Of a stretch of DNA of 50,523 bases, positions 2,647 through 11,792 are shown piece by piece (positions within the stretch are counted from its first letter, which is position 1; each line of letters starts with the position of its first letter). The notes beneath the pieces are model-generated. The model was given only the letters and a program-made list of their open reading frames with translations. It did no database searches and was not told the origin of the DNA. The stretch spans positions 1 through 50,523 of the forward strand of contig VEQR01000015.1 of the NCBI GenBank assembly GCA_018883125.1, read 5' to 3'. The translations under genes were made by a program, and so were the position numbers. The stretch comes from Candidatus Kapaibacterium sp. GTDB taxonomy: Bacteria > Bacteroidota > Ignavibacteria > Kapaibacteriales > Kapaibacteriaceae.

Positions 2647-3644
2647 GCGGACTGTGCGGTGGTGGTGAAGGTAGATGTTGATTCTCGAGGGGGCTGCCCT
2701 GGGTACCACGGACGATCGGGGGCATCCATACATGCAATCGAACAGGCACTGTTGAATTGATGCTCGCAGGGCTCACAGGCAAGGTGCTGCAAGTGGCATC
2801 GGTAGTTTCGGCAGTTGACGTAGCGTTCCGTTGCTTCGCCGCAATGATGGCAACGCCCTACAACTTTGCGATCATCTGTGTGATTGATCTCAACCGTTAC
2901 GCGTTCATCAAACACATAGCAGAGACCATCCCAGAGAGCCCCCTGAGTTTGCGGATCCTTACCGTAGGTGACGATTCCACCGTCAAGCTGGTAGACTTCT
3001 TTGAAGCCATCGCGGATCATGAATGAGGTAAGCTTTTCGCAACGGATTCCGCCCGTGCAGTACGTCAGGATCGGCTTCTCCCGTGCATCGGCTAGATGCG
3101 TCCGGATCCACTCAGGGAATTCGCGGAACGACTCCACGTTCGGACGAATCGCACCGCGGAAGTGACCGACGTCGAATTCGTAATCTGTGCGCCCGTCAAG
3201 GATGATAACGTCTCCGCGTTCAATGAGCTCTTTCCATTGCACAGGATTCAGCCGTTTACCGGTGATCTCATTGGGGTCAGACGGAAGGTCGGCACGGAAC
3301 GTCACGAGCTCCTGTTTCACCCGAACAAACAGCTTGCGGAATGCATGCTCCTGAACCTCGTCCACCTTAAATACCATTGAGGCAAAACGCGGGTCTGATG
3401 AGACGACGCGACGATATTCGTTACATGCCTCTGCGGGACCGGAGATCGTGCCGTTGAGCCCCTCTGTTGAGACAAGGATACGCCCCTTCACGCCAAGTGA
3501 CTCGCAGAATTGCCGATGTTGCTCGGCAAATGCTTCCGGGGTATCGATGTGAACAAACTGATAGTACAGGAGTACGTTGTACACTGGAGTTCCAATGGAG
3601 TCGTCAGGAAAAGTCACGTGCAAATCTACGCCCCAGACAACCAT
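2643..3644 (-). CDS. trhO: tRNA uridine(34) hydroxylase, rhodanese family (TrhO/YceA)
   Basis: Homologue of TrhO, which makes 5-hydroxyuridine at the wobble position of tRNAs with O2. The N-terminal domain starts with YNVLLYYQFV (about residues 22-31) and contains GRILVSTEGLNG. A rhodanese domain follows, with the catalytic-loop Cys196 in CTGGIRCE. A Cys-rich C-terminal region (CHHCGE, then CRNYRCH, CEPCEHQF) is also typical of the family. Coordinates use the first ATG (333 residues). A GTG at 3582-3584 (313 residues) matches the usual family N-terminus better and lies about 35 nt downstream of a TAGATTTG promoter element at 3621-3628 on this strand, so the shorter form may be the real one. 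First gene of a four-gene operon, divergent from the TPR gene. Confidence 0.9.
   Translation of the reverse strand: MVVWGVDLHVTFPDDSIGTPVYNVLLYYQFVHIDTPEAFAEQHRQFCESLGVKGRILVSTEGLNGTISGPAEACNEYRRVVSSDPRFASMVFKVDEVQEHAFRKLFVRVKQELVTFRADLPSDPNEITGKRLNPVQWKELIERGDVIILDGRTDYEFDVGHFRGAIRPNVESFREFPEWIRTHLADAREKPILTYCTGGIRCEKLTSFMIRDGFKEVYQLDGGIVTYGKDPQTQGALWDGLCYVFDERVTVEINHTDDRKVVGRCHHCGEATERYVNCRNYRCHLQHLACEPCEHQFNSACSIACMDAPDRPWYPGQPPRESTSTFTTTAQSA
3621..3628 (-). promoter_or_regulatory. Putative -7 promoter element (TAGATTTG) for trhO
   Basis: TAGATTTG on the minus strand matches the Bacteroidetes-type TAnnTTTG element. It lies inside the annotated 5' end of trhO, so transcription from it fits the GTG start at 3584 rather than the ATG at 3644. 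No clear TTTG -33 box is seen. It is one arm of a perfect 10-bp inverted repeat (3621-3630 with 3662-3671). Confidence 0.4.
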
Positions 3645-3712: not shown

Positions 3713-6700
3713 ATGGTGATCATACGAATCACGATGATCATGGGGGTGTGTGCTCTCGTTGCGTTTCAGGCACGAGGGCAGGATCTTCTTGCTCCACCCG
3801 TGCCGAGCGTCCACATCGCTCAGCAGTCCCATCGATTTCTTGACCAGGCACTGCTGCAGCGTTCACTGCAGGAACTTCGTCGATTCAGCGCCGACTGGAA
3901 TCGTACATCCTCGGGTGATCGCATCTGGCTTGACCGCGCAGAGATTGACCGTCGGCGAGAGAACCGCCTTGGTGCGTCGCGCCGGCTGACAGATTTCACC
4001 GACAGGCGCTCTGCCTCGCCCCTTGCCCCAATGGCCATGCTGGAGCGGGGGTTCATGGCCCTTGAGGATGGCGACCATGCCACGGGGGCAGAACTCTGTG
4101 GACTGGCTGCAAGCATGGCGCAGCAAGCGAAGGAACTTCGTGGCGACTCAGTGTACGGGAGTGTCTTGCAGCTTGCTTCATTTTGGGAGGCCACATCGCG
4201 AGCGCATCGTGGTGAGTTAGAGAAGGCTTTGGAAGGATACCAGCGTGCCACCGCGGGCGATGATGATCTTGCCGCACAGGCACGATTTGCCATTGGACAG
4301 GTGTACGAACAGAATGGGCAGGACGCCGAAGCATCTGCTGCCTATGGTGCCGTTTGGACGAATCATCCCTCGCATTCGCTGGCGATATCCGCACGTGTAC
4401 GACAGGCCGTCATCGCCCTTGGAAAACGGCAAGCCGTTCGATCAATCGATCTTCTTAACGGCATAGATACAGCGATGGCCGCATACCTTCGGGCGCGCAG
4501 TGAAGGAGCCACTATCGATTCGGTTGCCGTGGACCTCGTTCCGGTTGTGCGAGCACAGGCCCTTGCACAGGCCGGACTTCATCAGCGTGCCATTGACACC
4601 TGCAATGCATTCCTTGCGCGTCGTCCATCATCGGCGTTTCGTTGGGTGATGCATCTTACTGCCGGCTATTCTCACCTGCATCGGAATAAGCCTGATTCTG
4701 CGCTACGCCATTATGACCCGATCATCGGTGGCGACGCCGAAGAGGCCTCTGATACAAGGTATCAGGCGCTGCTGTATCGGGCACTCTGTCTGAAGCGGCT
4801 CGGCCGCGCCGATGAGGCAGAGAAGGAGTTCTCCGCACTTTCGATGCAAGGGGGCTATCCATACAAGGCTCAGGCTCTGATCGAAGTTGGTCAGGCTCAG
4901 TACGAGCGCGAAGAGTACGAACGATCTGTACGGTCTCTCGAGCGGGCAGAACGTGAGGCTCAGGACGCTTCAACAATGTTGCGTGCGCAGATCCTGCTAT
5001 CAAGCGCCCAGATGCACCGTCAGCAGTGGGCAAAGGCCGCATCAATCCTGGAGCGGGCAGAGAAGATCGCTACCGAAGCGCGCGAGGAGCTGGTTCCGAT
5101 GCGTCAGCGATACCTTGCCGATGCCCGTCTGCATCGTGGGATCTGCTTTGTGCAGTCCGGTCAGGCTAGGCAGGCCATTGCGGCGTTGACGGATTTTCTG
5201 GGAAATCATCCGACCGACGCTCGGCGAGATGAGGCTACTTTCTGGCTTGCCGAGGCTATGTACAAAGAAGACCTCCTGAAGAACGCCCAAGAACTCTACG
5301 AAGAGGTCGTGCGTCGATACACCGCCAGCAGCCGTCGTGAAGAAGCCATGTACGGACTTGCCTGGACGCATTTCCGTCGTCGGGACTTTGACCGTTCCTC
5401 GAAGGTGTTCGGTGAGCTGCTGTCAACGTATCCGGCGTCCAGATACGCAACAGAAGCGATGGTCCGCCGCGCTGATGCATTGTACATCGCCAAGCAGTTT
5501 GCCTCGGCCGCACGTCAGTACGAACAGGCTGCGCGCCGCGGAGGTGGACAGGAAGAGGCGCAGTATGCGGCATATCAGGCAGGGCAGTCCGCCTACCGGG
5601 CTGGAGAGCTCGCCCGAGCCGTTGAACTCATGCGGGATTTCGTGCAGCGATACCCGAAGAGCCGTCTTTCTGATGATGCACTCTACCTTGTGGGGTGGAT
5701 TGCTTTTCAGCAGCAGGACGATGCTGCTGCGGTGTCGGAGTTTGAGCGTCTGTTGTCGGCGTATCCTGACGGGGACCACGCTGTGCGTGCGTTGTATACG
5801 ATGGGAGACGCCTACTTCAACCTCGGTAACACCGATGCCTCGATCGCGACATACCGTGATGTGATGAGCCGTTTCCCGTCTCACCCCCTTGCCACGGAAG
5901 CGGCAAAGAGTCTGCAGGATGTGCTCGTTGGACAGGGTCGTACCGATGAGGCGATCGTGGTGCTTGATACGCTGATCCGCTCCAATCCATCCTCGCTGGC
6001 GGCAGAGGAATTTGCCTGGCGAAAAGCAGAAATCTTCTACTCAGGAAAGAACTACGCGTCCGCTGCCGGTGAACTGCAGGCGTACATGAAGACGTATCCA
6101 TCAGCGCAACGCAACGATGAAGCACTCTATTTGCTTGGGCGCACGTACCTGACAATGAACGACGTTGCGCAGGCACGTGAGGCATTTTCGGCTATTCCCG
6201 CGCGAGATGCGAAGAGCCGATTCGTCGTCAGCTCGATGATGGATCTCGCCGAGTACTTCACAAAGTCTGCCAACATGTCGTCGGCCGATTCGATCTACCG
6301 CATCGTACTCAAGTCGTATAAAACCGATACCGTTGCCGCATCGCTAGCCGGCTACGAATTGGCCGAGCATGCACGTCTTCGCGAAGACACAGTATCTGCC
6401 ATCACGCTCTACCAGCAAACGGCGGACGTCTATCCGGCAAGTGAGTATGGGGCTCAATCGCGCTACAAACTTGCGCAGCTGCATCGTCGGGCCGGACGGC
6501 TTGACAGTGCACGATTCCACCTGAATATGCTCGCTCAGCGAACCGATGCGCCCCTGATCGTTGCCAACGTTCTGTATGACCTGGGTACGTCGTTCATGCG
6601 CGAAAAGAGTTTTGAAACGGCAGTAACGTATTTCGAGCGGGTGCGTGATGACCACGCTGGAATTGAAGACTGGTACACGCTGTCGATGCTCTCGTTAGGG

Positions 6701-6832
6701 GAATGTTATGAGGCGCTGAACCGTCGTGGAGATGCATCGCAGACCTATCAGACAGTGCTTACACTCCGTCCGGATGATGACTATGGAAAGACGGCGCAGA
6801 TGCGCCTGAAGAGGCTGGGAGGTCGGCGATGA
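3713..6832 (+). CDS. Large tetratricopeptide-repeat envelope protein
   Basis: A 1039-residue protein made almost entirely of tandem TPR-like helical pairs after an N-terminal signal sequence (MVIIRITMIMGVCALVAFQA, cleavage probably near ARG-Q). Typical repeat segments include ALYLVGWIAFQQQDDAAA, ALYTMGDAYFNLGNTDAS and AMYGLAWTHFRRRDFD, with the Ala/Gly/Tyr/Pro spacing of YbgF/BamD-type TPRs. The likely role is a periplasmic or outer-membrane scaffold. The ATG at 3713 was chosen because it gives a signal peptide and lies downstream of the TAGATTTG promoter; the open frame continues upstream to 3467 but overlaps trhO. Its stop overlaps the ATG of the beta-barrel gene (ATGA), so the two are translationally coupled. 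No enzymatic domain is seen; the partner is not known. Confidence 0.85.
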   Translation: MVIIRITMIMGVCALVAFQARGQDLLAPPVPSVHIAQQSHRFLDQALLQRSLQELRRFSADWNRTSSGDRIWLDRAEIDRRRENRLGASRRLTDFTDRRSASPLAPMAMLERGFMALEDGDHATGAELCGLAASMAQQAKELRGDSVYGSVLQLASFWEATSRAHRGELEKALEGYQRATAGDDDLAAQARFAIGQVYEQNGQDAEASAAYGAVWTNHPSHSLAISARVRQAVIALGKRQAVRSIDLLNGIDTAMAAYLRARSEGATIDSVAVDLVPVVRAQALAQAGLHQRAIDTCNAFLARRPSSAFRWVMHLTAGYSHLHRNKPDSALRHYDPIIGGDAEEASDTRYQALLYRALCLKRLGRADEAEKEFSALSMQGGYPYKAQALIEVGQAQYEREEYERSVRSLERAEREAQDASTMLRAQILLSSAQMHRQQWAKAASILERAEKIATEAREELVPMRQRYLADARLHRGICFVQSGQARQAIAALTDFLGNHPTDARRDEATFWLAEAMYKEDLLKNAQELYEEVVRRYTASSRREEAMYGLAWTHFRRRDFDRSSKVFGELLSTYPASRYATEAMVRRADALYIAKQFASAARQYEQAARRGGGQEEAQYAAYQAGQSAYRAGELARAVELMRDFVQRYPKSRLSDDALYLVGWIAFQQQDDAAAVSEFERLLSAYPDGDHAVRALYTMGDAYFNLGNTDASIATYRDVMSRFPSHPLATEAAKSLQDVLVGQGRTDEAIVVLDTLIRSNPSSLAAEEFAWRKAEIFYSGKNYASAAGELQAYMKTYPSAQRNDEALYLLGRTYLTMNDVAQAREAFSAIPARDAKSRFVVSSMMDLAEYFTKSANMSSADSIYRIVLKSYKTDTVAASLAGYELAEHARLREDTVSAITLYQQTADVYPASEYGAQSRYKLAQLHRRAGRLDSARFHLNMLAQRTDAPLIVANVLYDLGTSFMREKSFETAVTYFERVRDDHAGIEDWYTLSMLSLGECYEALNRRGDASQTYQTVLTLRPDDDYGKTAQMRLKRLGGRR

Positions 6833-8466
6833 AAAAGCACATGCTGATCTTGGTTATTCTCGCGATTCTGGGGCCACTTGCCATGTGGGCCCAGACGCCC
6901 CCCACACAGCCGGGCACACAGCCAGGTTCACAGCCCAATGCACCGCTGGAGCTCCCGGATTTTCTCGTTACCGGAAAGGCTCTTGTTGATGTTGCATCAG
7001 CAGCCAAACACGTGCCGACGCGTCCACCGACGTTTACGTTGGCGGAGCTTGATTCGCTGAATCCTACGGAAAAGCTGCCGCCACCACTTGCCTCGCGTCG
7101 ACCCTTGCCGCTGTTCATGCGCAAGGACGACTATTCGCCGGGCTATGTTGATGTTTCCGGCGGAGCCTACCTAACGCCGTCGTTGCAGGCCGGTTACTCA
7201 ATGCGTACCGGTGGATATACGCTCGATCTGGCCGGTGGCATCGAGCATTCGCAAGGGTGGGTGGACGGCTCGGGATACACCACGGCGCAGGCGCGACTCA
7301 ATTCATCCTATGTGGCTCCGGAGAAGTTTATCTTCTTCGGCAAGGGGCTCACCGAGACCGATGTGCAGCTTCGGCATCAGGCGTATTCGCTATATGCCGA
7401 TACGGCCGGCATGGGGGATAGGTCCTCATTGAGTCTGCTGGCGGGGGTGCAAACGGAGGCGAAGATTGAAAACGTTGATGTGATTGGAACCTTCGGTTGG
7501 ACGAACATCGGGCTGACGACATCAGATGGCGATACGCAGGGGAATGGTTCGGCGTCCGACAACGCGATCACAGCCAATGTATCGTGCGCCTGGTCCGGAG
7601 GTGGGGATCGCTCAACTGTCGATGTTGACCTGCGACTTCAGTCTCTCAACGGCAACTCCTACTCGTTCATTGAAGCACAGTATGGTCGTGGGTGGAAAGC
7701 CGGTGCATGGACCGTTGGTGTTTCTGCTGGACCGCAGATCGGCTGGACGACGGCAAATGAAACCCGCCCTGGCCTGATGGCACGCGCGTCGGCCCAGAAC
7801 GTGCTGTCGCCCAACTCTACTCTTCGTCTTGAACTGTCATCCGGAATGAGACCAACCTCGTTCGCGGACCTCTTCCGGATGAATCCCTATCTCGGCGATT
7901 CGGTTGCCGTGGACCATGCGTATGACTTGGTCGACGCCCGTGCGCTTATCACTTGGCAACCGTCAGTAGCAACGTCCCTTCTTGCCACCGTTGGAGCTCG
8001 GTCAACAGCTCGTGAGCGGACATGGGAAGACGGTAACCGCGGAACGTTCATCGTTTCGTATCGTCCGGTAACGGCGCTCTGGGCGTCAGTTGAGGGATCG
8101 TATTCAGTCTCGCCCCGTGACCTCATCTATGGAGAGATGCAGTTGATGATGACGTCAACCGATTCGGGCCGCGTGCAGACCTACGTTGCCCCGATCCAGG
8201 TAGCGATGGGCTATGAACGCCAGTGGACTGCTGATGTTCGGTCACGGGTCTCGATTGCCTATGTTGGTCAGCGGTGGGCGGACGTCCGAAACACGCGCGT
8301 CATTGATGGATTTATCGACCTCCGCACCACGGTCACGTATTCTGTTAGCCGGGTTATTGATGCCGAGATTCACGGGGAGAACCTTGTGAACAGTAGCGTC
8401 TATCTCTGGAATGGGTATCGGGGCCGAGGTATCTTTGTACGTCTTGGACTTCTTTGGAAGATGTGA
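6829..8466 (+). CDS. Outer-membrane beta-barrel protein, TonB-receptor-like without plug
   Basis: A 545-residue protein with a clean signal peptide (MKKHMLILVILAILGPLAMWA) and a Pro/Gln/Gly-rich linker. A short motif LELPDFLVTG resembles a TonB-box/carboxypeptidase-like lead-in. About 430 residues of alternating amphipathic strands follow (for example YTLDLAGGIEHSQGWVD and SRVSIAYVGQRWADVRN). The C-terminus GRGIFVRLGLLWKM has the aromatic/hydrophobic pattern of an outer-membrane beta-signal. No 120-residue plug domain is evident, so it is more likely a barrel partner of the TPR protein than a classical TonB-dependent transporter. The ATG overlaps the TPR-gene stop; the SPOR gene begins 3 nt after its stop. 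Substrate unknown. Confidence 0.72.
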   Translation: MKKHMLILVILAILGPLAMWAQTPPTQPGTQPGSQPNAPLELPDFLVTGKALVDVASAAKHVPTRPPTFTLAELDSLNPTEKLPPPLASRRPLPLFMRKDDYSPGYVDVSGGAYLTPSLQAGYSMRTGGYTLDLAGGIEHSQGWVDGSGYTTAQARLNSSYVAPEKFIFFGKGLTETDVQLRHQAYSLYADTAGMGDRSSLSLLAGVQTEAKIENVDVIGTFGWTNIGLTTSDGDTQGNGSASDNAITANVSCAWSGGGDRSTVDVDLRLQSLNGNSYSFIEAQYGRGWKAGAWTVGVSAGPQIGWTTANETRPGLMARASAQNVLSPNSTLRLELSSGMRPTSFADLFRMNPYLGDSVAVDHAYDLVDARALITWQPSVATSLLATVGARSTARERTWEDGNRGTFIVSYRPVTALWASVEGSYSVSPRDLIYGEMQLMMTSTDSGRVQTYVAPIQVAMGYERQWTADVRSRVSIAYVGQRWADVRNTRVIDGFIDLRTTVTYSVSRVIDAEIHGENLVNSSVYLWNGYRGRGIFVRLGLLWKM

Positions 8467-8469
8467 CCT

Positions 8470-9489
8470 ATGGACCCAAAAGATCCCGTATGGGACGATG
8501 ACGACAGCTCAACAGAGAGCGACGGTTTTCATCCTCAGAGTATGCCTCCCAAGGAGAGTGAACCGTCTGTTACCGTACCACCCGAAGACTCGGATGATTC
8601 TCCGCAGGCCCCGAGCCCTCTGCCTCCTCCGCCAAGTGAACGAGTTCGTGTTGAGCCGGTAGACAGTTTTCGACGTCCGGCGGCAGGGGGCGGACGCAGT
8701 GCAGCAGGCTCTCGAGATCGTCGTGACCGCAGCTCTACGTCGATGGTGGTGATCGCACTGATGCTCTTTCTCATCAGCGTCATCAGCATCGGAGTGTATT
8801 TCTTCTCACGCCAGGCTCGAGATGAAGCCGGCGGCGATGGTGCCGAGACGGTGGAGTATATCGACCAGAATGATCAGGGTAGTGCTTCAGTGACCGATGG
8901 CGCAGCGCAAGCAGCGGCTTCGCAGGAGCAAGCAGATAGTGCAGCTGACACGGCACCACCACCACCGCCTCCCGGAGCACCGGCTACTGCGGCGCTCCCC
9001 TCACAAAAGAACACACAAGCACCTTCCGCGCAAAAGTCGCCCGAACGTGATGTTGCTTCCGCAACAGTACCGCGAAGCGTTCCTCAGCCGGAGCCCACTC
9101 CCGAGCCGGCCGCCAAGCCATCGCCGAAAGCACCTGTTGAGCCTGCCAAGCCAGCCCCCTCGAAGGATATAGTAAAGCCGCAGCAACCGTCTCTGAACAC
9201 CTCGCCCACGCCTCGTGCGAATCCTCAGTTGAAGACCACCAAGGGGAACAACGCTGGCGATGCGCAGTGGGTGATACAAGTTCATTCGAGTCAGTCCGTC
9301 GATGACGCCGATGAATGGCTGCAGCAGTTACAATCGCGCAACGTCGGTGACGGCCGTATCGAACCCGTTACCCGGCAGGGTAAGGTCTGGTATCGTGTGC
9401 GCTTCGGACGGTATGCCAGCCGTGAAGAGGCTGAGCAGGCAGCGCTGCAACTGGGGTATCGTAATGCCTGGATCGATAGGGTTCGATGA
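8470..9489 (+). CDS. SPOR-domain membrane protein
   Basis: A 339-residue single-pass inner-membrane protein. An acidic and Pro-rich cytoplasmic N-terminus (about 1-90) leads to a transmembrane helix (MVVIALMLFLISVISIGVYF, about 91-112). A long low-complexity Pro/Ala/Lys periplasmic linker follows (about 115-260), then a C-terminal SPOR domain (about 262-339: WVIQVHSSQSVDDADEWLQQ and WYRVRFGRYASREEAEQAA). SPOR domains bind denuded peptidoglycan glycan strands at division sites, so the protein probably links the envelope module to the septum or cell wall. The start is the first ATG, 3 nt after the barrel stop; the stop overlaps the next ATG. Domain call is firm; the exact role is inferred. Confidence 0.85.
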   Translation: MDPKDPVWDDDDSSTESDGFHPQSMPPKESEPSVTVPPEDSDDSPQAPSPLPPPPSERVRVEPVDSFRRPAAGGGRSAAGSRDRRDRSSTSMVVIALMLFLISVISIGVYFFSRQARDEAGGDGAETVEYIDQNDQGSASVTDGAAQAAASQEQADSAADTAPPPPPPGAPATAALPSQKNTQAPSAQKSPERDVASATVPRSVPQPEPTPEPAAKPSPKAPVEPAKPAPSKDIVKPQQPSLNTSPTPRANPQLKTTKGNNAGDAQWVIQVHSSQSVDDADEWLQQLQSRNVGDGRIEPVTRQGKVWYRVRFGRYASREEAEQAALQLGYRNAWIDRVR

Positions 9490-10235
9490 CCAGACACGCT
9501 GATCAGCCGTCGATAAGTATTCGTCTTGCTTGGAGCCCCAATGTTGCCCGTGGCTTCGTGGGAGCACTCATTATCATGGCCATGATACTTGGCATGATGA
9601 CCTGCACACGATTCGACGCGGATCCGATCGTAATGCCGAAAACCGCTCCGGTCACACTTCTCGTGCTCGGAAGCGGTGACGGAACAGGAATGCGCAAGGG
9701 AAATCTGACGGCAGAAGGTGCCGCCCAAAAGGGGGCGGAAAACAAAGACCCGTTGGTTGACGCAGCGAAAAGCAGTGGGGCGTCCAAAACGCCAACGTCA
9801 GATCCCGCACTGGCCTCCAAGTTCATCCCCAAAGATCAGGCCGGTAAAGGTGGAAAGACCAACGATGAAGCATCGTCAGACGTTGCCATCGGATCGGCAA
9901 AAGGTAGTGACCAAGGCACCGGTCTGGGTGAATTGGGCGTGGGAAGGGGCAAGGGAGACGGATTCGGAGATATTGATTGGGGTGGTGGCGGCAATCGGAC
10001 AGTTGTGACGAAGGTGATCCCGACATTTCCACCCGGAGTGCTTGACACCAAGGTCAAGATCCGATTCCGCGTGGCGTCAAATGGTTCGGTCACTACGGCA
10101 TGGCCTGAAAAGAAGGGTGGCAGTCGCCTTGTTGAGCAAGCCGCTATTCAGGCGCTGATGCGCTGGAGATTCAATCGACTCGCAACAGAAACCGAAATGG
10201 AAGGCGTAATCACCTTTATGGTCAACTACCGATGA
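9486..10235 (+). CDS. TonB-like energy transducer protein
   Basis: A 249-residue protein with an N-terminal transmembrane helix (about residues 24-43, FVGALIIMAMILGMM), a Gly/Lys/Asp-rich linker (residues ~60-155) and a C-terminal TonB_C domain (about 160-249). The domain shows KVKIRFRVASNGSV, VEQAAIQALMRWRFN and the terminal VITFMVNYR strand. TonB proteins carry proton-motive energy from ExbB/ExbD to outer-membrane receptors; no exbB or exbD lies in this window. The linker is Gly-rich rather than the Pro-rich linker of classical TonB, which is unusual. It overlaps the SPOR gene by ATGA and the next small gene by ATGA. Its barrel partner may be the product of 6829-8466 (inference from context). 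Confidence 0.8.
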   Translation: MTRHADQPSISIRLAWSPNVARGFVGALIIMAMILGMMTCTRFDADPIVMPKTAPVTLLVLGSGDGTGMRKGNLTAEGAAQKGAENKDPLVDAAKSSGASKTPTSDPALASKFIPKDQAGKGGKTNDEASSDVAIGSAKGSDQGTGLGELGVGRGKGDGFGDIDWGGGGNRTVVTKVIPTFPPGVLDTKVKIRFRVASNGSVTTAWPEKKGGSRLVEQAAIQALMRWRFNRLATETEMEGVITFMVNYR

Positions 10236-10414
10236 GCGCTCAACTCCTTGCCATCGCATCCGAGCTACCGCAGGGTATGCAGATCGTTATCGTTTTGCTG
10301 CTGATCGGACTCATCCTGTCGATCGTCAAGAAACTCGTCAAGATTGCTGTGTTGGTCACGATACTAATCGTTCTCATCTTTGCCATCCGTCTGCTGATGG
10401 TATCAATGCCGTAG
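10232..10414 (+). CDS. Small two-helix membrane protein
   Basis: A 60-residue hydrophobic protein with two likely transmembrane helices: IVIVLLLIGLILSIVKKLVK, then the helix rich in Val/Ile/Leu around VLVTILIVLIFAIRLLM. They are separated by a short Lys-containing turn. I recognise no family. It is likely real because its ATG overlaps the stop of the TonB-like gene (ATGA), as elsewhere in this operon, and because the composition is consistently hydrophobic. It could be a small accessory subunit of the envelope module. A 40-nt gap follows before UDP-glucose dehydrogenase. Confidence 0.6.
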   Translation: MSAQLLAIASELPQGMQIVIVLLLIGLILSIVKKLVKIAVLVTILIVLIFAIRLLMVSMP

Positions 10415-10454: not shown

Positions 10455-11792
10455 ATGTCGCACAAGGTCGCAGTCATTGGCACTGGATATGTTGGTCTGG
10501 TAACGGGCGCTTGCCTTGCGGACGTTGGTAACGACGTCCTCTGCATCGACGTTGACCCGTCAAAGATCGAGCGTCTGAAACGCGGAGAGGTTCCGATCTA
10601 TGAACCTGGACTCGACGTTGTTCTTAATCGGACCATCCGTGAGGGTCGTATCCGTTTTTCGCTCGATCTTGTTCTCGCTGTAAAAGAGTGCGACATTCTG
10701 ATGTTGTGCCTCCCGACACCACCAGGCAAGGATGGCCAGGCTGATCTGGAGATGGTGATGTCGGCCGCGCATCGTGTGGCCGAACTGCTGAACGAGCTGG
10801 ACATTCATCATCCTCGCATTGTCGTCAACAAAAGCACCGTGCCAGTTGGAACGGCGGCGCTGGTTCAAGGGATATTCGATAGTGTCGCACCCGCTCGCCG
10901 GGTAGACGTTGTAAGTAACCCCGAGTTTCTCCGCGAGGGATTTGCCGTGGAAGATTTCATGCGTCCAGACCGCATCGTTGTGGGCACCAGCAGCCCCCTT
11001 GCCGCAGAGTGGATGCAGAGCTTGTATCGACCCTTTACCGATCGGGGGGCAACGCTTCTAGTGTTCGATGAAAAGAGTTCGGAGGTGACCAAGTATGCTG
11101 CCAATTCCTTCCTTGCAACCAAGATCTCGTTCATGAACGACCTTTCGGAGTATTGCGAAGCCGTTGGTGCGGATATCGAGAATATTCGCATTGGTATCGG
11201 AATCGATCCCCGAATTGGAAGTCGATTTCTGTATGCCGGTATCGGCTACGGCGGTAGTTGTTTCCCCAAAGACGTTAAGGCCATCATCCATGCGGCCGAG
11301 CAGACGGGAACGCCGCTCGAGGTTATCAAAGCGGCCAAAGTTGTGAACGACCATCAAGTGCGCCGCTTTACCGGACGCGTAGTTGCCCGCTTCGATGGCG
11401 ATCTCTCGGGCAAGCGCGTTGCGCTGTGGGGACTTGCCTTCAAACCCGATACCGATGATGTCCGTGAAGCGCCATCATTTGTGATCATCGACCGGCTTCT
11501 CTCGGAAGGGGCTGAAGTTGTCGCCTTCGATCCCGAGGCACGTGAAACCACGCACCGCGTGATCGGAGACCGCATTACGTACGCCGACGATGCCTACAGC
11601 GCGCTCAGCGGGGCTGATGTTCTGATCATTGCTACAGAGTGGCAGGAGTTCCGCGATCCTGATTTTGCTCGCATGCGCAAGGAGCTATCAGCACCGATAA
11701 TCTTCGACGGTCGAAACATGTTCCATCCGGACGACATGCGGGAACGGGGCTTTGAATATCACTCAGTTGGCAGAGCATCCGTAACCCAGTAA
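10455..11792 (+). CDS. UDP-glucose 6-dehydrogenase
   Basis: A 445-residue NAD-dependent enzyme oxidising UDP-glucose to UDP-glucuronate, a precursor of acidic exopolysaccharide or capsule. The N-terminal Rossmann domain opens with KVAVIGTGYVGLV (GxGxxG) and an acidic ribose-binding CIDVD. The substrate-binding region includes NPEFLREGFAVEDF, and the catalytic Cys269 lies in GYGGSCFPKD. The C-terminal UDP-binding domain has LWGLAFKPDTDDVREAPS. Length and motif order match the UDP-glucose/GDP-mannose dehydrogenase family. An AAGGGA ribosome-binding site at 10441-10446 fits the ATG. It may be co-transcribed with the envelope module (40-nt gap, no promoter seen). Confidence 0.95.
   Translation: MSHKVAVIGTGYVGLVTGACLADVGNDVLCIDVDPSKIERLKRGEVPIYEPGLDVVLNRTIREGRIRFSLDLVLAVKECDILMLCLPTPPGKDGQADLEMVMSAAHRVAELLNELDIHHPRIVVNKSTVPVGTAALVQGIFDSVAPARRVDVVSNPEFLREGFAVEDFMRPDRIVVGTSSPLAAEWMQSLYRPFTDRGATLLVFDEKSSEVTKYAANSFLATKISFMNDLSEYCEAVGADIENIRIGIGIDPRIGSRFLYAGIGYGGSCFPKDVKAIIHAAEQTGTPLEVIKAAKVVNDHQVRRFTGRVVARFDGDLSGKRVALWGLAFKPDTDDVREAPSFVIIDRLLSEGAEVVAFDPEARETTHRVIGDRITYADDAYSALSGADVLIIATEWQEFRDPDFARMRKELSAPIIFDGRNMFHPDDMRERGFEYHSVGRASVTQ

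Follow-up and report, generated by a model that had tools for sequence, protein, structure and literature searches.

A module of five co-directional genes occupies positions 3713-10414 of the forward strand of a 50,523-nucleotide stretch of DNA from Candidatus Kapaibacterium sp. (contig VEQR01000015.1, assembly GCA_018883125.1), the whole of which is called the window here. In order, the genes encode a giant tetratricopeptide repeat (TPR) protein, a plugless outer-membrane barrel of the TonB-dependent transporter (TBDT) type, a SPOR-domain protein, a TonB-like protein and a 60-residue membrane peptide. On balance, this module appears to represent, in Kapabacteria, a Ton/Tol-type machine for force transduction across the envelope, one that is found across the Bacteroidota and likely does the job of Tol-Pal. 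The gene set is a variation on Ton/Tol machines; the system is conserved, and the window copy is a derived one without motor genes of its own. The source genome is 2.9 Mb in size and 99% complete, and Kapaibacterium belongs to the Bacteroidota in the NCBI taxonomy. How the outer membrane is attached, and folded inward at division, in Bacteroidota with no identifiable Tol-Pal is an open question (PMC12204202), for which the module provides a concrete candidate operon across the phylum.

Conservation of the gene string

Direct reading of the open reading frames (ORFs) shows that three of the four junctions are ATGA overlaps (6829, 9486 and 10232) and that 3 nt (8467-8469) separate the barrel and SPOR genes, in full agreement with the gene boundaries, coordinates and overlaps in an earlier note made from the letters of this DNA alone. 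That note also suggested that the overlaps fix the stoichiometry of the products, a view that has to be given up, since gene overlaps do not set stoichiometry.

Loci for comparison were located via the barrel and chosen to cover families, so the counts are not prevalences. Neighbours were entered in a uniform hidden Markov model table if they lay on the same strand within 6 kb of the barrel, at 21 loci of the order and 38 outside it, where the order is that of the window (Kapabacteria) as the genome grouping sets it; families, genomes and loci carry the prefixes f, G and L. Across the order loci, which come from ten families, the SPOR and TonB genes are present in 21/21, the TPR gene in 20/21 and ExbB/ExbD in 0/21. 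Retention of the string at 20 further order loci from ten families, with the TPR gene unrecognised at one of these loci (L040), speaks against chance as the source of the arrangement. The 38 loci outside the order, from more than 20 families, have a TPR gene in 31 cases, SPOR in 27, ExbB in 22, ExbD in 22 and TonB in 19, and an HU-like domain lies with or beside the SPOR gene in 15. The usual gene order there is TPR-barrel-[HU-]SPOR-ExbB-ExbD-TonB.

The earlier note had read the five genes as one trans-envelope machine, to be abandoned if synteny failed or if the genes belonged to separate known systems. Neither was found: conservation of the string extends throughout the order and to a large part of the phylum. 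Since relatives carry exbB and exbD inside the same string, one trans-envelope machine of the Ton/Tol type becomes more likely. A literature search covering the gene set, HU-CCDC81 with SPOR, plugless TBDTs with a TPR protein and outer-membrane constriction in Bacteroidetes yielded no description of the system, most subscription papers and all preprints lying outside that search.

Components and proposed mechanism

Pfam recognizes many TPRs, a SPOR domain and a sub-threshold TonB_C domain among the module proteins, with no significant match for the barrel or the 60-residue peptide. The barrel (545 residues; 6829..8466, + strand) is nevertheless well defined by its AlphaFold2 model, built on an alignment of 55 relatives, which has 22 strands and a pLDDT of 89, mostly above 90 from residue 105 onward. 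Residues 1-104, a tail of about 100 residues at the N-terminal end, are largely disordered and form no plug, and Pfam Plug is not matched, so the term plugless, used in the earlier note, is well founded. The best 50 PDB matches of the model in Foldseek are all TonB-dependent transporters, with BtuB first (E 4e-18), and the barrel family profile matches PDB TBDT sequences at E 4e-11. The barrel sequence matched 59 of 60 relatives and is present in one copy in most genomes, while its profile matched 233 of 296 genomes across the phylum, some of these being ordinary TBDTs. The f28 matches L090 and L091, which alignment showed to be plugged TBDTs, were excluded from the module.

The barrel tail contains a TonB-box-like peptide around 'LELPDFLVTGK' (6943..6975, + strand), so named for its resemblance to TonB boxes. 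Its core reads 'LPDFLVTGK' in the window and 'LPEFIVTGK' in relatives, similar to the 'EVVVTG/A' TonB boxes that stand directly before the plug in TBDTs of the same genome, and its position is conserved across barrel alignments. The strict motif [ED]-phi-phi-phi-x-G-[KTRQE] is present in 31 of the 55 barrel tails, against a mean of 0.125 (maximum 1) after shuffling, a comparison that is descriptive because the tails are related sequences. The likeness makes the peptide a putative TonB box.

The candidate partner of this peptide is the TonB-like protein (249 residues; 9486..10235, + strand), which has a transmembrane segment (TM) at residues 18-40, a Gly-rich linker and a TonB C-terminal domain (CTD) at about 188-246. 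As a single sequence its TonB_C match falls below the Pfam cut-off (19.7 versus 24.6 bits), but the family profile matches the CTD of E. coli TonB (2gsk_B, from a structure that includes BtuB) at E 2.8e-11. In the structural model, one TM and a disordered Gly-rich linker lead to a β-β-α-β CTD with a TMt of 0.76-0.79 to TonB CTDs, which are its nearest solved folds, ahead of TolA. The TonB-like identity proposed earlier is thereby confirmed. Only three close relatives were found in the contig scan, with 77-78% identity, in 'Candidatus Kapaibacterium sp.' and 'Ignavibacteria bacterium' records.

The SPOR protein (339 residues; 8470..9489, + strand) has an acidic, Pro-rich cytoplasmic N-terminus, a TM at about 87-112, a disordered-looking linker and a C-terminal SPOR domain (residues 266-335, Pfam E 2e-13). 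SPOR domains bind denuded peptidoglycan. The single TM followed by a C-terminal SPOR domain is the topology of FtsN and DamX, also bitopic inner-membrane proteins; unlike these, the window protein sits in a Ton-type operon, and it scores 21 bits against the FtsN model, whose cut-off is 108. Many orthologues elsewhere have an N-terminal HU-like DNA-binding domain, the architecture of the HU-CCDC81-SPOR proteins of Bacteroidetes, for which a role in chromosome partition has reportedly been predicted. The Kapabacterial protein differs in keeping the TM and SPOR domain with no HU domain detected in its N-terminus. In genome G111, a stand-alone HU-type gene of 93 residues (L079:8228-8509, Pfam E 1e-19) lies between the barrel and SPOR genes.

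The giant periplasmic TPR protein (1039 residues; 3713..6832, + strand), possibly a scaffold, starts at the ATG at 3713, which yields the signal peptide MVIIRITMIMGVCALVAFQARG ahead of QD, without a lipobox; the mechanical ORF begins at a TTG at 3467. Its TPRs score far above the Pfam cut-offs (TPR_6, 185 bits). The 60-residue peptide (10232..10414, + strand) is present as the earlier note described it, with two hydrophobic stretches predicted to form a two-helix membrane peptide, but its counterparts are restricted to families f1, f2, f6 and f9 of the order, so it belongs to the module in only some families.

In the fuller form of the machine, ExbB and ExbD would turn proton flow into motion of the TonB-like arm, whose CTD would grip the TonB-box-like peptide in the barrel tail and so pull on the outer membrane. 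The giant TPR protein would scaffold the periplasm, and the SPOR protein would keep the assembly at denuded, septal peptidoglycan, reaching in many lineages to the nucleoid through its HU-like domain. The outcome would be that of Tol-Pal elsewhere: the outer membrane is kept on the wall and drawn inward during division. Without an HU domain and motor genes of its own, the Kapabacterial machine may share a motor or may be reduced to a tether. If the proposal is correct, a TBDT barrel here does not transport but offers the machine a point to pull on, and a line may run from the nucleoid (HU) to the wall (SPOR) and on to the outer membrane.

Motor genes and coupling

The earlier note remarked that exbB and exbD are not nearby. 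This is true of the window cluster, but it reflects a lineage-specific loss in the Kapabacterial module rather than a property of the system, since about 22 of the 38 loci elsewhere have both genes. The same genome encodes them away from the module, at G000:C100:46242-47767; here and in every other tested f1 genome, a single ExbB and two ExbDs are encoded, by an ExbB-ExbD-ExbD-TonB operon. With a single motor operon elsewhere and none in the module, two options are left for the TonB-like protein: use of that motor as a shared one, or operation with no motor.

Running without one would make the Kapabacterial module an unpowered tether, in which the TonB-like protein, uncoupled from any motor, bridges the inner membrane and the barrel while the SPOR and TPR proteins provide wall contacts. 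Such a tether, which is unlikely though worth keeping in view, would fit the lack of ExbB/ExbD at all 21 order loci and the state of a TM His. Cluster TonBs of same-class relatives (L073, L075-L078, L080, L131-L133 and L148), in nearly all of which the cluster includes exbB/exbD, have an SxxxH motif in the TM; the His, at the position of TonB H20, is missing from the window TonB-like protein and nearly all order members (His only in L038, Asn in L033 and L039). However, the canonical TonBs of the order (L093:7907-10646, L109-L123), which adjoin ExbB-ExbD-ExbD, also lack the His that same-class relatives keep, and it is missing as well from TonBs of some other Bacteroidota whose motor genes are adjacent (L083, L136, L138 and L147). 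Loss of the His is therefore no proof of uncoupling, and its use as a sign of uncoupling was withdrawn. The parallel change in both arms agrees a little better with a shared motor than with an arm that is uncoupled, although covariation is imperfect, the TonB-like protein of L038 retaining a His that its canonical TonB lacks. The juxtamembrane 'NTxRGF' of the TonB-like protein, similar to 'NTRKAF' of canonical TonB, also fits a shared motor. Most likely, the TonB-like arm in Kapabacteria is driven by the only ExbB-ExbD-ExbD motor of the genome.

Locus L129 (G133, f11) has a TPR-barrel-SPOR-TonB string without detected exbB/exbD, which suggests an independent loss of motor genes. Genome G178 has two module copies (L074 and L102), one TPR-barrel-SPOR and the other TPR-barrel-ExbB-ExbD, after which comes a gene for a small protein whose TM has the SxxxH motif.

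Relation to Tol-Pal and alternative readings

In a 2025 survey, no tol-pal loci could be identified in Bacteroidetes; PorE was proposed there as a tether, and similar systems were said to await discovery (Williams-Jones et al. 2025, PMC12204202). SPOR proteins are not mentioned in the text of that paper. The present survey used the NCBI curated cut-offs for Pal (TIGR02802), TolB (TIGR02800) and YbgF/CpoB (TIGR02795), and Chlorobiaceae were recognized by their FMO protein. Apart from the one Chlorobiaceae genome of the first panel, Pal exceeds its cut-off in 0/34 genomes. TolB exceeds its own in 0/22, and no tested genome that carries the module passes for either protein. One Chlorobiaceae genome has a complete tolQ-tolR-tolA-tolB-pal-pal-ybgF operon with two Pal genes (L101:7748-13248), in keeping with the tol-pal documented in Chlorobiota (PMC12204202). 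Contamination as the source of the Pal contig in G179 was rejected, since all 20 relatives have Pal. Among the 57 genomes of a second panel, Pal is present and the barrel absent in 20/20 Chlorobiaceae, Pal is absent and the barrel present in 27/27 other genomes with a full-length barrel, and both occur together in none. This complementarity is the pattern expected of replacement. It is conceivable, and is proposed here tentatively, that Bacteroidota outside Chlorobiaceae constrict and anchor the outer membrane by a dedicated Ton-derived machine that displaced Tol-Pal, and that Kapabacteria then lost their own motor.

The module and Tol-Pal (TolQ-TolR-TolA-TolB-Pal-CpoB) appear to have in common the ExbB/TolQ- and ExbD/TolR-type motor that relatives encode beside a TonB/TolA-type arm, a possibly CpoB-like TPR protein and peptidoglycan links. 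They differ in that the module has no TolB or Pal, its outer-membrane partner is a plugless barrel, SPOR replaces the OmpA-type wall binder, the TPR protein is about four times as long as CpoB, and motor genes are missing from the window. Like the Ton system (ExbB-ExbD-TonB and TBDTs), the module has a TBDT barrel, a TonB-box-like peptide and a CTD fold closer to TonB than to TolA; unlike it, the module has a barrel without a plug, fixed linkage to TPR and SPOR genes, and no substrate genes. PorE, likewise a proposed Tol-Pal substitute in the same phylum (PMC12204202), is one lipoprotein with CpoB, TolB and Pal folds encoded outside the module operon, and the two could cooperate.

Several points weigh against a Tol-Pal-like machine. 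No localization or knock-out data for the module were found. The Tol-Pal side of the complementarity is one clade and so represents few independent events, and replacement is not strict, as 10 of the 57 genomes have neither Pal nor a full-length barrel: G134 and G183 (f41), G060, G065, G070 and G075 (f23), and G073, G226, G258 and G310, the families concerned being f13, f17, f20, f22, f23 and f41. Proteins of the PorE type are proposed to tether the outer membrane to the wall (PMC12204202), and OmpA-domain proteins are abundant in the window genome (25 Pal-profile matches), so this tethering does not depend on the module alone. The YbgF/CpoB match of the giant TPR protein (270.9 bits, cut-off 90.1) is summed over nine TPR stretches, and the BamD/YfiO model passes likewise; inflated by repeats and confounded by generic TPR similarity, this match is at most suggestive. 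The f41 genomes have the FMO protein, like Chlorobiaceae.

Other functions can be imagined for the same parts. The barrel might, powered by TonB, transport or gate one particular cargo, such as a lipid, lipoprotein or nutrient, with the SPOR and TPR proteins only positioning it. A TBDT barrel, a TonB box and TonB are the toolkit of active outer-membrane transport, and a pore that is unplugged in the model needs some gate; but the conserved neighbours of the barrel were not seen to include a periplasmic binding protein, an ABC transporter or a SusD-like partner, a single copy kept across many families fits housekeeping better than one nutrient, and the SPOR domain indicates the septum, all of which makes a cargo transporter improbable. 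Still less probable is a polysaccharide exporter of the BcsC/PgaA/AlgK-AlgE type, supplied with precursor by a UDP-glucose dehydrogenase encoded downstream. Those exporters do combine a periplasmic TPR scaffold with an outer-membrane barrel, and the dehydrogenase-like gene follows the module in families f1, f5, f9 and part of f2. Their barrels, however, have 16-18 strands, not 22 with TBDT relatives; no synthase or co-polymerase was recognized among the cluster neighbours, and the dehydrogenase, unlike TonB, SPOR and ExbBD, has kept its place in no more than part of the order. It was the strand number and the synteny that led to rejection of the exporter reading. That the module is an accessory part of the type IX secretion (T9SS) and gliding apparatus is scarcely credible: the giant TPR protein scores 118 bits against the PorW/SprE model, far under the curated cut-off of 250 and explicable by generic TPR similarity, and the neighbours scanned with Pfam, a minority of the flanking genes, are not T9SS or gliding proteins.

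The UDP-glucose 6-dehydrogenase-like gene (10455..11792, + strand) is the co-directional neighbour of the module in the window. It was not seen beside the module at loci outside the order, and it probably does not belong to the machine. In genome G014, a relative, the stretch upstream of the TPR gene (L027:4030-5587) has a 311-bp tandem repeat (4.4 copies, 93% matches), with a 68-residue ORF in each unit, and after it a 27-bp repeat (7.2 copies).

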